Positions 59,983-64,000 of a stretch of DNA of 64,000 nucleotides are shown here, one piece after another. The stretch lies in assembly GCF_003261175.1 (NCBI RefSeq), contig NZ_QLNP01000105.1, positions 248,001-312,000 on the forward strand. Direction: 5' to 3'. The notes beneath the pieces are model-generated. The model saw nothing but the letters and a program-made list of their open reading frames with translations. It did not search any database and was not told the origin of the DNA. This DNA is from Arthrobacter globiformis. GTDB lineage: Bacteria; Actinomycetota; Actinomycetes; Actinomycetales; Micrococcaceae. Numbering within the stretch: the stretch's first letter is position 1; each line of letters begins with the position of its first letter. Made by a program: the position numbers and the translations under genes.

Positions 59983-61704
59983 ATGAGTGAGGACACCCAG
60001 ATCGCAACCGATAACAAGCCTGACATCAAGCCCCGGAGCCGGATTGTCACGGACGGCATTCACGCAGCTCCGGCCCGTGGAATGTTCCGGGCCGTAGGCA
60101 TGGGCGACGACGACTTCGCCAAGCCCCAGATCGGCGTCGCGAGCTCCTGGAATGAAATCACTCCCTGCAACCTGTCCCTGAACCGGCTGGCCCAGGGCGC
60201 CAAGGAAGGCGTCCACGCCGGCGGCGGCTTCCCGATGCAGTTCGGCACCATCTCCGTGTCCGACGGCATCTCCATGGGCCACGAGGGCATGCACTTCTCC
60301 CTGGTTTCCCGTGAAGTCATCGCCGACTCGGTGGAGACCGTCATGCAGGCAGAGCGCATCGACGGCTCCGTGCTGCTGGCCGGCTGCGACAAGTCGCTCC
60401 CGGGCATGCTTATGGCCGCTGCGCGCCTGGATCTCGCCAGCGTATTCCTCTACGCCGGCTCCATCATGCCGGGCTGGGTCAAGCTGGAGGACGGCTCCGA
60501 AAAGGAAGTCACCCTGATCGACGCCTTCGAAGCCGTCGGTGCGTGCGCCGCGGGCAAGATGAGCATGGAAGACCTCACCCGCATCGAGAAGGCCATCTGC
60601 CCCGGCGAAGGCGCCTGTGGCGGCATGTACACCGCGAACACCATGGCCTGCATCGGTGAGGCCCTGGGCATGTCCCTGCCCGGCTCGGCAGCCCCGCCCT
60701 CGGCAGACCGCCGTCGTGACGAATTCGCCCGCAAGTCCGGCGAAGCCGTGGTCAACCTGCTCCGCCACGGCATCACGGCCCGCGACATCATGACCAAGAA
60801 GGCCTTCGAAAACGCCATCGCCGTCACCATGGCCTTCGGCGGATCCACCAACGCCGTCCTGCACCTGCTGGCGATCGCCCGCGAGGCAGAGGTCGAACTG
60901 ACCCTGGACGACTTCAACCGCATCGGCGACAAGATCCCGCACCTGGGTGACCTGAAGCCCTTCGGCCGCTACGTCATGACCGACGTCGACAAGATCGGCG
61001 GCGTGCCGGTGATCATGAAGGCGCTGCTCGACGCCGGCCTGCTGCACGGTGACTGCCTCACCGTTACGGGCAAGACGGTTGCGGAAAACCTTGAGGCCAT
61101 CAACCCGCCGGACGTGGACGGCAAGATCCTCCGCGCACTGGACAACCCGATCCACAAGACCGGCGGCATCACGATCCTGCACGGTTCCATGGCTCCGGAA
61201 GGCGCCGTCGTGAAGAGCGCCGGCTTCGACGCCGACGTCTTCGAGGGCACTGCACGCGTGTTCGAGCGCGAGCAGGGTGCCCTGGACGCGCTGGACAAGG
61301 GCGAGATCCAGAAGGGCGACGTCGTCGTGATCCGCTACGAAGGCCCCAAGGGCGGTCCGGGCATGCGCGAGATGCTCGCCATTACCGGCGCCATCAAGGG
61401 TGCAGGCCTGGGCAAGGACGTCCTGCTGCTCACCGACGGCCGCTTCTCCGGGGGCACCACGGGCCTGTGCATCGGCCACGTCGCCCCCGAAGCGGTCGAC
61501 GGCGGCCCCATCGCCTTCGTCAAGGATGGCGACCGGATCCGCGTGGACATCGCCGCCCGCAGCTTCGACCTGCTCGTAGACGGCGCAGAACTCGAATCCC
61601 GCAAGGAAGGCTGGGCACCGCTGCCGGCCAAGTTCACCAAGGGTGTCCTGGCCAAGTACGCCAAGCTGGTGCACAGCGCCAGCACAGGGGCGTACTGCGG
61701 GTGA
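59983..61704 (+). CDS. ilvD: Dihydroxy-acid dehydratase
   Basis: IlvD dehydrates 2,3-dihydroxy-isovalerate and -methylvalerate in Val and Ile synthesis. The 573-residue protein carries the cluster Cys candidates Cys62 (TPCNLSL), Cys135 (GCDKSLPGM) and Cys212 ([14 protein letters not shown]), the spacing of [2Fe-2S]-type dehydratases. [20 protein letters not shown] near the C-terminus is intact. The start ATG 59983 is leaderless by the -10 box position. A 12-bp perfect hairpin follows its stop, so it is transcribed separately from ilvB. Confidence 0.96.
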
Positions 61705-61710
61705 TGCCTT

Positions 61711-61747
61711 CCCCTTGCGGGAGGCGCTGAGCGCTTCCCGCAAGGGG
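61711..61747 (+). terminator. Terminator of ilvD
   Basis: Perfect arms CCCCTTGCGGGA / TCCCGCAAGGGG with an inner GCGC / GCGC stem, 7 bp after the ilvD stop. There is no T-tract, so it may act with Rho. Confidence 0.75.
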
Positions 61748-61802
61748 ACCCTAGGCACCACCCTTATTAAGCCCTGCCGCCCCCAGTGGGCGGGTGCAGT
61801 TC

Positions 61803-61855
61803 GATCCCTTAGGGAAGGATCATCTCGTGGACACCGACGTCCACATGGTGAGATG
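61803..61855. other. Inverted repeats upstream of the ilvB leader promoter
   Basis: A hairpin at 61821-61855 pairs CATCTC with GAGATG and GTGGAC with GTCCAC (6-nt loop, with a 5-nt bulge). A smaller GATCC / GGATC pair lies at 61803-61821. They end 14 bp before the -35 box and could be a regulator site. The rest of the ilvD-ilvB gap (61748-61802) shows nothing clear. Confidence 0.5.
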
Positions 61856-61868
61856 GCGTGCCGCTTCG

Positions 61869-61897
61869 TTGACACGCTATCCACCAGAGGGAAAACT
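61869..61897 (+). promoter_or_regulatory. Promoter of the ilvB leader
   Basis: TTGACA at 61869-61874 is a perfect -35 box. With 17-bp spacing the -10 is AAAACT at 61892-61897. The first A of the leader peptide's ATG (61904) is 7 nt beyond, so transcription would start at or on the ATG. Confidence 0.6.
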
Positions 61898-61903
61898 GAA
61901 CGC

Positions 61904-61960
61904 ATGATCTTCGTTACCGTCGGCACCGTCGTCGTACTTACCAAGCGCGTGGCTCCATAG
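61904..61960 (+). CDS. ilvB leader peptide (18 residues, branched-chain attenuator)
   Basis: The small frame encodes MIFVTVGTVVVLTKRVAP. Six Val, one Leu and one Ile in 18 residues, with three consecutive Val codons (GTC GTC GTA) at positions 9-11, is the codon mix of a branched-chain leader. A terminator follows 27 bp after its stop. Ribosome stalling at the Val run when charged tRNA-Val is scarce would favour read-through into ilvB. Leader peptides upstream of ilvB are known in Corynebacterium. The frame is too short for ordinary gene finders. Confidence 0.85.
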   Translation: MIFVTVGTVVVLTKRVAP

Positions 61961-61987
61961 CCCGACTGGTAACGAACTGTCACGCGC

Positions 61988-62032
61988 AACCCCTCGAAAA
62001 GCCACCAGGCGGCTGAGGGGTTTTTTTATTTT
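61988..62032 (+). terminator. Attenuator terminator upstream of ilvB
   Basis: Arms AACCCCTC (61988-61995) and GAGGGGTT (62015-62022), with inner AGCC / GGCT, are followed by TTTTTTTATTTT (62021-62032), a strong intrinsic terminator between leader and ilvB. The bases GCGCGTG (61945-61951) in the leader's end pair exactly with CACGCGC (61981-61987) just before the terminator, giving a possible pause or protector hairpin. I do not resolve a single antiterminator. Confidence 0.85.
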
Positions 62033-62100
62033 CCGGGCGGGACGGAACGTTCAGTTTTCCTAGCACCACACCAATTCAAGATCCACTAAGGAAGAGTTCG

Positions 62101-64000
62101 ATGAGCAAAGGATCGCCCATCAGCCCCTCGCTGATGGCTTCAAAGTCCGCTGGAGCCGCCAAGGCTCCGGAACGCGTCGACAAGCCGGCTGAGGCCGGGG
62201 TCGACATTGCTGCAGCCGCCTCTCCTGTCCTTGGGCCGAACAACGTCGTACCCCCGACGGTGATGACCGGCTCAGAAGCAATTGTCCGTTCGCTCGAAGA
62301 ACTCGGCGTCGACGACATTTTCGGTTTGCCCGGTGGCGCGATCCTGCCCACCTACGACCCCTTGATGGCCTCCAAAATGAACCACGTTCTGGTCCGTCAC
62401 GAACAGGGAGCCGGCCACGCCGCGCAAGGCTACGCCATGGTCACCGGGCGGGTGGGCGTCTGCATCGCCACCTCGGGCCCGGGTGCCACCAATCTCGTTA
62501 CTGCCATCATGGATGCCCACATGGACTCCGTTCCGCTCGTGGCCATCACCGGCCAGGTCTCCAGCGGAGTGATCGGCACCGATGCCTTCCAGGAAGCCGA
62601 CATCGTGGGCATCACTATGCCCATCACCAAGCACTCGTTCCTGGTGACCGACCCCAACGACATTCCCCACGTCATGGCCGAGGCCTTCCACCTCGCCTCG
62701 ACGGGACGTCCGGGCCCGGTCCTGGTCGACATCGCCAAAGACGCCCAGCAGGGACAGATGACGTTCTCCTGGCCGCCGAAGATCGACCTGCCGGGCTACC
62801 GCCCCGTGGTCCGCGGCCACAACAAGCAGGTCCGTGAGGCCGCCAAGCTGATCTCCGCCGCCAGCAAGCCCGTGCTCTACGTGGGCGGCGGTGTGGTCAA
62901 GGCCCACGCCTCGGCTGAACTGCGCGAGCTGGCTGAACTGACCGGTGCACCCGTGGTCACGACGCTCATGGCCCGCGGTGTCTTCCCGGACTCGCACCCG
63001 CAGCACGTGGGCATGCCCGGCATGCACGGCACGGTTTCGGCTGTTACCGCGCTGCAGCAGGCGGACCTGCTGGTGACCTTGGGCGCGCGCTTTGACGACC
63101 GCGTCACCGGTGTCCTGAAGACCTTCGCGCCCAACGCCAAGGTCATCCACGCCGACATCGACCCCGCGGAAATCTCCAAGAACCGCACGGCCGACGTTCC
63201 CATCGTGGGCTCCGTGAAGGAGATCATTCCGGAACTGACGGAAGCTGTCCGGACCCAGTTCGGCACCTCCGGGACCCCGGACCTGGCGAACTGGTGGGCG
63301 TTCCTGAACAACCTGAAGGACACCTACCCGCTGGGCTGGACCGAACCCGAGGACGGCCTGACTGCACCGCAGCGGGTCATCGAGCGCATCGGCGCCCTGA
63401 CCGGCCCCGAAGGCATCTACGTTGCCGGCGTGGGACAGCACCAGATGTGGGCTGCGCAGTTCATCAAGTACGAGCGCCCGCACGCCTGGCTGAACTCCGG
63501 CGGCGCCGGCACTATGGGCTACGCCGTTCCGGCCGCCATGGGCGCCAAGGTGGGAGAGCCGGAGCGTGTGGTCTGGGCCATCGACGGCGACGGCTGCTTC
63601 CAGATGACCAACCAGGAACTGGCCACCTGCGCCATCAACAACATCCCCATCAAGGTTGCCGTCATCAACAACTCCTCGCTGGGCATGGTGCGCCAGTGGC
63701 AGACCCTTTTCTACGAGGGCCGCTACTCCAACACGGATCTGAACACGGGCCACGAGACCATCCGCATCCCGGACTTCGTCAAACTCGGCGAGGCCTACGG
63801 CTGCGCGTCCTTCCGGTGCGAGCGGGCCGAGGACATCGACGCAACAATCCAAAAGGCGCTGGAAATCAATGACCGCCCCGTGGTCATCGACTTCGTGGTC
63901 AGCCCCGACTCCATGGTGTGGCCGATGGTGCCCGCCGGAGTCAGCAACGACCAGATCCAGGTTGCCCGCAACATGACCCCGGAATGGGAAGAGGAGGACT
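62101..64000 (+). CDS. ilvB: Acetolactate synthase large subunit (3' end beyond window)
   Basis: IlvB is the ThDP- and FAD-dependent catalytic subunit that makes acetolactate or acetohydroxybutyrate for Val, Leu and Ile. The visible 633 codons start at ATG 62101 with AAGGAAG 6 nt upstream and run off the window, so the stop is not seen. The catalytic Glu101 lies in VRHEQGAGH, and the ThDP motif GDG sits at about residues 496-498 ([16 protein letters not shown]). The ~55-residue N-terminal extension ([10 protein letters not shown]...) before [14 protein letters not shown] is longer than in enterobacteria. The regulatory subunit ilvN is expected just beyond the window. Confidence 0.96.

Follow-up and report, generated by a model that had tools for sequence, protein, structure and literature searches.

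The closest described system is the ilvBNC operon of Corynebacterium glutamicum, where the transcription start site is reported to lie one nucleotide from the start codon of a leader that acts as an attenuator (PMC11857589). The leader peptide, MTIIRLVVVTARRLP, is placed within a three-hairpin model, in which the antiterminator (36-79) and the terminator (77-113) share a GCC that is called critical (PMC11857589). Among the mutants of that report, replacing leader Val with Ala abolished the valine dependence, and changing the leader ATG to AGG lowered expression by 80% (PMC11857589). With the exchange A73G, said to stabilise the antiterminator and leave the terminator unchanged, AHAS rose to 40.1 units from 13.0. 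G37A, a mutation of the antiterminator, gave 20.0 versus 13.0, a slight rise where a fall was expected (PMC11857589).

Several other leaders of actinobacteria are built in a related way. The ilvB-II motif, as defined in Corynebacterium, likewise has a uORF rich in branched-chain amino acids (BCAA) with a terminator and antiterminator 5' of ilvB, and its antiterminator takes part of the lower terminator stem (PMC10272879). The M. tuberculosis ilvB1NC leader and the leaders of Seliverstov et al. 2005 also comprise a BCAA-rich short ORF and a terminator, with proposed stalling; they are described as mutually exclusive structures, and are compared here by that description and not by their exact bases (PMC13236596, PMC1262725). 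In M. tuberculosis, mutation of the LVVI codons is reported to abolish induction (PMC13236596). According to Seliverstov et al., substituting codons 5' of ilvB in S. coelicolor was without effect (PMC1262725), a result that speaks against generalising. Leaderless leader peptides are already known in this setting, with C. glutamicum as the precedent. Canestrari, in 2020, reportedly described leaderless poly-cysteine uORFs of mycobacteria. These are also leaderless short ORFs that sense an amino acid, but a different one, and they are described as acting by attenuation of translation, not of transcription (PMC13236596). In our literature search, which covered few subscription journals, there was no report of an Arthrobacter ilvB leader peptide or of a Micrococcaceae leader-peptide attenuator, and no paper joining a leaderless short ORF, attenuation, a branched-chain amino acid and Actinobacteria.

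Here we consider the region in front of ilvB in a stretch of 64,000 nucleotides of Arthrobacter globiformis DNA (the window), together with its counterparts in related bacteria. Like C. glutamicum ilvBNC, it appears to have a (nearly) leaderless Val-rich leader, a terminator, an antiterminator and an anti-antiterminator in the same order; the difference is that the candidate antiterminator, helix B, ends 2 nt before the terminator, T, and shares no base with it (PMC11857589). We consider it very probable that ilvB is controlled here by ribosome-mediated transcription attenuation in response to BCAA, through a leaderless leader peptide.

Loci and selection rules

The family set comprised 143 Micrococcaceae loci, of which 138 had a candidate leader, representing 115 unique promoter-plus-leader types. 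Those without a leader were L190, L191, L193, L194 and L208; five more family loci (L007, L182, L187, L188 and L192) were left out as misassigned, and no terminator was obtained for L183. The leader rule called for TTGA(C/T) at a distance of 30-44 nt upstream and scored ATG 2 points above GTG or TTG; leaders were also chosen for Val/Ile/Leu runs. The presence of a -35 box and the preference for ATG are therefore partly selected, the distance from the -10 box to the ATG is not, and only the position of the run relative to helix B counts as evidence.

Outside the family, the rule gave no leader in 28 of the 57 loci L008-L064, among them every Microbacterium and Bifidobacterium locus. In at least two of these 28, L055 and L063, a leader can be made out by eye, so the rule missed it there. 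The ilvD stop of L009 apparently lies near ilvB (by eye), and the attenuator may be lost there. A class-wide sample comprised 68 loci out of 112 genomes with a match, and in its leader search a -35-like word earned a bonus of 5. Eleven of the 68 gave nothing and 57 gave a leader, a helix and a terminator, 49 of them with a -35-like word at 33-40 nt. Helix B was searched for without constraint, as the best helix between the leader end and the stretch running through the terminator 5' arm. Ribosome states were modelled with a partition function in which the ribosome footprints were masked.

Organisation of the ilvB leader region

Within the 64-kb window, the leader region sits between ilvD (59983-61704) and ilvB (Table 1). 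In L083, which is the same locus with more flank, the frames 3' of ilvB read by eye as ilvN and ilvC. A long hairpin without a T-run lies directly 3' of ilvD (61711-61747, by eye). The leader has 18 codons followed by TAG at 61958-61960, with Val at codons 4, 6, 9, 10, 11 and 16; the first-pass annotation had claimed just such a frame, with six Val codons and three in a row before a terminator and ilvB, and this can be read directly in the sequence. The terminator is a hairpin at 61988-62020, then seven T at 62021-62027. On comparison, the set of promoter, leader and terminator is conserved across Micrococcaceae, and is looser in many other families of the class.

Table 1. Features of the ilvB leader region, with positions in the window
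Feature	Position	Strand	Basis
Operator-like site GTCCACATGGTGAGA, upstream of promoter	61839..61853	+	Conserved in family upstream regions
-35 box TTGACA	61869..61874	+	Sequence; TTGA(C/T) in family
-10-like box AAAACT; predicted transcription start = A of leader ATG	61892..61897	+	Spacing to ATG
Leader peptide gene MIFVTVGTVVVLTKRVAP, stop included	61904..61960	+	Sequence; frame conserved 57/57
Helix A, 5' arm (putative anti-antiterminator) UUCGUUACCG	61910..61919	+	-10.7 kcal/mol, shuffle p 0.03
Control codons Val10 Val11 Leu12	61931..61939	+	Start 14, 11, 8 nt 5' of helix B
Helix B, 5' arm (putative antiterminator) GCGCGUGGC	61945..61953	+	Comparison, shuffles, covariation
Helix A, 3' arm UGGUAACGAA	61967..61976	+	Partner of 61910-61919
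Helix B, 3' arm GUCACGCGC	61979..61987	+	End 2 nt 5' of terminator GC stem
Intrinsic terminator T, AACCCCTC...GAGGGG + 7 T	61988..62027	+	Sequence, MFE fold
Shine-Dalgarno-like AAGGA of ilvB	62088..62092	+	Sequence; SD-like word before ilvB in 102/115
ilvB, acetolactate synthase large subunit	62101..63999	+	NF005860 1114.1 bits, cutoff 881; TIGR00118

The 147-nt RNA from the leader ATG folds with z = -1.98, but 7 of 200 shuffles were equally stable, so folding alone is weak evidence. A generic terminator scan listed two other hairpins and not T, presumably because its loop limit is 8. Rfam returned no family match for 61000-64000 at E up to 1, nor for eight relatives at gathering scores, and a riboswitch or other known RNA family was ruled out by the absence of a match.

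The leader peptide and its promoter

The distance from ATG to GCGCGTG keeps a single phase at eight lengths in all 57 unique leaders from the window genus and three named Arthrobacter/Paenarthrobacter loci, while the non-coding stretch from the stop to CACGCGC (23 unique) occurs in all three phases (12, 7 and 4). The leader frame is under coding constraint, because one phase is kept before GCGCGTG while the post-stop stretch drifts.

In 95 of the 115 unique family types, 6 nt separate the end of the -10-like box from the ATG (7 nt in 8, 12 nt in 1, no box in 11), and the -35/-10 spacer is 17 nt in 36 and 18 nt in 65 of the 104 types with a box. TTGA(C/T) is found 35-36 nt 5' of the leader ATG in 128/138 family loci with a candidate, where the rule itself asked for 30-44 nt, and all 138 candidate leaders begin with ATG, which the rule mildly favoured. 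Shine-Dalgarno (SD)-like words at -15 to -4 are absent from the leader in 110/115 types; the ilvB starts have one in 102/115. This geometry fits a predicted transcription start at the leader ATG itself, with no Shine-Dalgarno, and comparison supports a leader peptide that is translated, Val-rich and leaderless. Both points agree with the first-pass annotation, which had proposed such a start, and a Val-rich leader with an attenuator, in front of ilvB.

An upstream, longer frame of 105 aa was taken as chance, the promoter and ATG spacing being conserved. The -10 region has a 13-nt perfect inverted copy (GGAAAACTGAACG; 61890-61902 versus 62048-62060) just past the terminator. Inverted copies of at least 8 nt are found only in the window and its sister L084 (15 nt) among 133 family loci, and this could be a piece of an antisense promoter or chance.

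Control codons and helix B

Branched-chain codons start 14, 11 and 8 nt 5' of B in 97/97, 97/97 and 96/97 of the family loci in that phase. It had been suggested that Val codons 9-11 exert the control; three Val are indeed present there, but conservation of the control positions is highest at codons 10-12 (Val, Val, Leu), and the codon 9 position is branched-chain in 79/97 family loci. In L125 (MQFISVVVLI), the stop codon comes 5' of B, with the offsets unchanged and only the stop shifted. Class-wide, 39, 42 and 41 of 43 loci have a branched-chain codon at 7-9, 10-12 and 13-15 nt, against a background of 6/40 at 1-3 nt and 8/42 at 19-21 nt.

A ribosome has a footprint that extends ~12 nt past the start of its A-site codon. 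When waiting at the control codons, it would have its leading edge about where B begins. Stalled there, it would free B, while on the stop codon it would cover B; the footprint of a stop-codon ribosome covers the start of B in 42/43 class-wide loci.

The sequences GCGCGTG at 61945 and CACGCGC at 61981 lie where they had first been noticed, and the helix proposed between them beside the terminator is strongly supported by its position, by shuffles and by covariation. In 100 of the 115 unique family loci with a terminator, the B 3' arm is 0-5 nt 5' of the terminator stem (2 nt in 31, 3 nt in 56); the remaining loci overlap T (3), have the helix elsewhere (4) or have none (8). The gap is 0-2 nt in 19/28 other actinobacterial loci. 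By the rule, 9/115 family and 7/28 other loci have no B near T, some of them from T having been misplaced by the script. When the 20 nt preceding the terminator are shuffled, a B near T proves significant (p up to 0.05) in 101/106 family loci, and likewise in 19/21 other actinobacterial loci. Class-wide, B is -3 to 5 nt from the terminator in 43/49 loci of 25 families, without overlap and within 5 nt in 38/49 and with an overlap of 1-3 nt in 5/49, and 32 of the 43 helices are significant against shuffles. Among the mycobacterial loci, B is 2 nt before T in L038, L052 and L053, and none is found there by the rule in L036, L040, L041 and L056.

Covariation points the same way: there are 35 distinct arm pairs in 125 loci, and 286 of 315 cells are paired versus a shuffle mean of 247.6, a value reached in 0/2000 shuffles by a statistic that ignores relatedness. 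The arms read GCGCGTGGC/GTCACGCGC in the window, GCGCATGGC/GCCATGCGC in L181, GCGCCTGGC/GCCAGGCGC in L184 and GCGCGTCGC/GTGACGCGC in L211. Because the B 5' arm falls within codons Lys14-Ala17, the peptide varies (RVA, RMA, RLA) while the pairing is constant. From this comparison, B appears to be under strong selection, with clear compensatory changes. In L203 and L204, the loop of B folds into a strong hairpin of its own (CCCTCCG/CGGAGGG), while the helix is reduced to 5 pairs.

Helix A and the ribosome-state model

As expected of an anti-antiterminator, the leader of the window can pair with the segment just before the B 3' arm, helix A ending 2 nt 5' of that arm. A and B are taken as exclusive because the pairings cross and the link is so short. 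Helix A is less well supported than B: it is significant locus by locus in 45/106 family and 3/21 other loci, and its sequences differ by genus at a similar place (GTAGTCGTC/GACGACTAC in L215, CACCGAAGT/GCTTCGGTG in L203). UUACC(A) at 61938-61943 could also pair with (U)GGUAA as a pseudoknot in addition to B; the same UGGUAA fits helix A as well. In L124, L128, L131 and L138, the best helix of the A type joins ATGCAG, which contains the leader start codon, to CTGCAT just 5' of B (p 0.22-0.33), and could block leaderless initiation.

For the window locus, the modelled probability of B is 0.00 in free RNA, 0.87 with a stalled ribosome and 0.00 with a ribosome at the stop codon (the last by construction). 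The model thus reproduces the attenuation logic of the window: off when untranslated, off with fast translation and on when stalled. Medians over 106 family loci are 0.03, 0.83 and 0.00. The stalled value exceeds 0.5 in only 76/106 family loci, with 30/106 at or below 0.5, and free RNA already exceeds 0.5 in 25/106 family and 18/21 other loci, in which 'off without translation' is not reproduced.

The terminator behaves differently in the same model. Its mean probability in the family is 0.91 in the free, stalled and stop states, and in each state 105/106 loci exceed 0.5. Until the 3' arm exists, the 5' arm of T is largely unpaired, also in the stalled state (mean pairing 0.06; >0.5 in 2/106). 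Exclusion of antiterminator and terminator by shared bases, as in trp/his-type attenuators, is not found, nor is the 3-nt sharing of the C. glutamicum type in the window. With T at 0.91 in all states and its 5' arm hardly paired, base competition does not account for read-through once B has formed; and because T is thermodynamically equally likely with or without B, the ON step would need a steric or kinetic effect. GUGGCU (61949-61954) with AGCCAC (62001-62006) was considered as an antiterminator sharing terminator bases, and was rejected because an alignment, inspected by eye, shows a loop that differs among relatives.

Proposed mechanism and alternatives

We propose that RNA polymerase begins at or beside the leader ATG. 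If the leader is not translated, A would form and, crossing B, would keep B open, and T would end transcription. The first-pass annotation had also suggested that the attenuator may sense the availability of ribosomes competent for leaderless starts; none of our results supports this, and the one point related to it is the termination predicted for an untranslated leader. With ample Val- and Leu-tRNA, translation would run to the stop codon, where the ribosome would hide the B 5' arm, and T would again end transcription. When Val or Leu is short, the ribosome would stall at codons 10-12, breaking A; its edge would lie at about the first base of B, B would close, and RNA polymerase would read into ilvB. 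B, together with the ribosome halted at the end of B that adjoins T, would then hinder T sterically and not by taking its bases. We infer such a steric block because B shares no base with T yet its 3' arm ends 2 nt before it. A ribosome has been described as preventing terminator hairpins under tight coupling (PMC5021804). A more detailed version, which we offer tentatively and regard as doubtful, is a steric relay in which B would serve as a ruler, bringing the stalled ribosome up to the terminator's foot. With the start of the last control codon 8 nt before B, this ribosome would touch one strand of B, the other strand at the same end would enter the terminator after 0-5 nt, and with all of these packed end to end T could not close in the RNA polymerase exit channel. 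This arrangement would be ancestral in the class, and the 3-nt overlap of Corynebacterium derived.

A classical attenuator, with mutually exclusive structures and an antiterminator that takes terminator bases, would escape a simple helix search if the sharing involved bulges or pseudoknots, or if the antiterminator captured the A-tract with which the U-tract pairs. The 3 nt common to antiterminator and terminator in C. glutamicum (PMC11857589), the GCC that GGCGCTTG/CAAGCGCC of Corynebacterium L055 shares with its terminator (by eye), and the short overlaps in 5/49 class-wide loci with a -35-like word all fit this reading. It is nevertheless unlikely for the loci considered here, since the unconstrained search put the B 3' arm 0-5 nt before T in 100/115 and inside T in only 3, and the T 5' arm stays mostly unpaired, stalled too, before its partner exists. 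B might also be no antiterminator at all, and instead a pause, stability or processing hairpin, or an aid to T by stacking: it adjoins T and could stack on it, and both fold together in the model. As a stop-codon ribosome covers B and a control-codon ribosome frees it, starvation would lower ilvB if B helped T, the opposite of what has been described in C. glutamicum (PMC11857589) and M. tuberculosis (PMC13236596), and we hold such roles to be very unlikely. By analogy, the A73G result in C. glutamicum would favour B as the antiterminator, and the G37A result would not.

Two further readings concern the promoter. Control of ilvB chiefly at the level of transcription initiation, through an IclR-type (NdgR/LtbR-like) regulator acting at 61827-61853 and with T nearly constitutive, has in its favour the motif GTCC-N4-6-RTGAGA, whose start lies 65-67 nt 5' of the leader ATG in 109/131 unique family upstream regions, and the NdgR motif reported 5' of ilvB in S. 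coelicolor (PMC4340878). In the window, a palindrome GTGGAC-N6-GTCCAC at 61827-61844 overlaps the operator-like site and runs into ATGGTGAGA; GTCCANATNRTGAGA occurs once in its own genome, and the left half of the site is similar to the reported NdgR motif while the right half is not (PMC4340878). As the main explanation this is improbable, for it leaves the conserved leader, the control-codon spacing and helix B unexplained, but initiation control might coexist with attenuation, the operator-like site being a possible second layer. If the transcript instead began upstream of 61904, the leader would be untranslated or translated from a Shine-Dalgarno. The window genus has a GAGGG that ends 13 nt 5' of the ATG, just beyond the scanned -15 to -4; the generic promoter scan found no promoter at the locus, and the -10-like box is weak, AAAACT matching TATAAT at 3/6 positions. 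Against this stand the SD-like words in just 5/115 types at -15 to -4 and a -10-like box that keeps its distance from the ATG while the -35/-10 spacer varies; frame conservation argues against an untranslated leader, and an upstream start seems highly improbable.

Implications

Textbook attenuators switch through competition of antiterminator and terminator for the same RNA bases, whereas B adjoins T without overlap, at a fixed distance from the sensing codons, in most of the Micrococcaceae loci examined. If B antiterminates, the mechanism must involve more than base competition, and how a neighbouring helix or a ribosome stops an intrinsic terminator becomes a testable question. The ribosome-mediated attenuator favoured here would, as far as sequence comparison can tell, add a large group of soil bacteria to those with leaderless BCAA attenuation.
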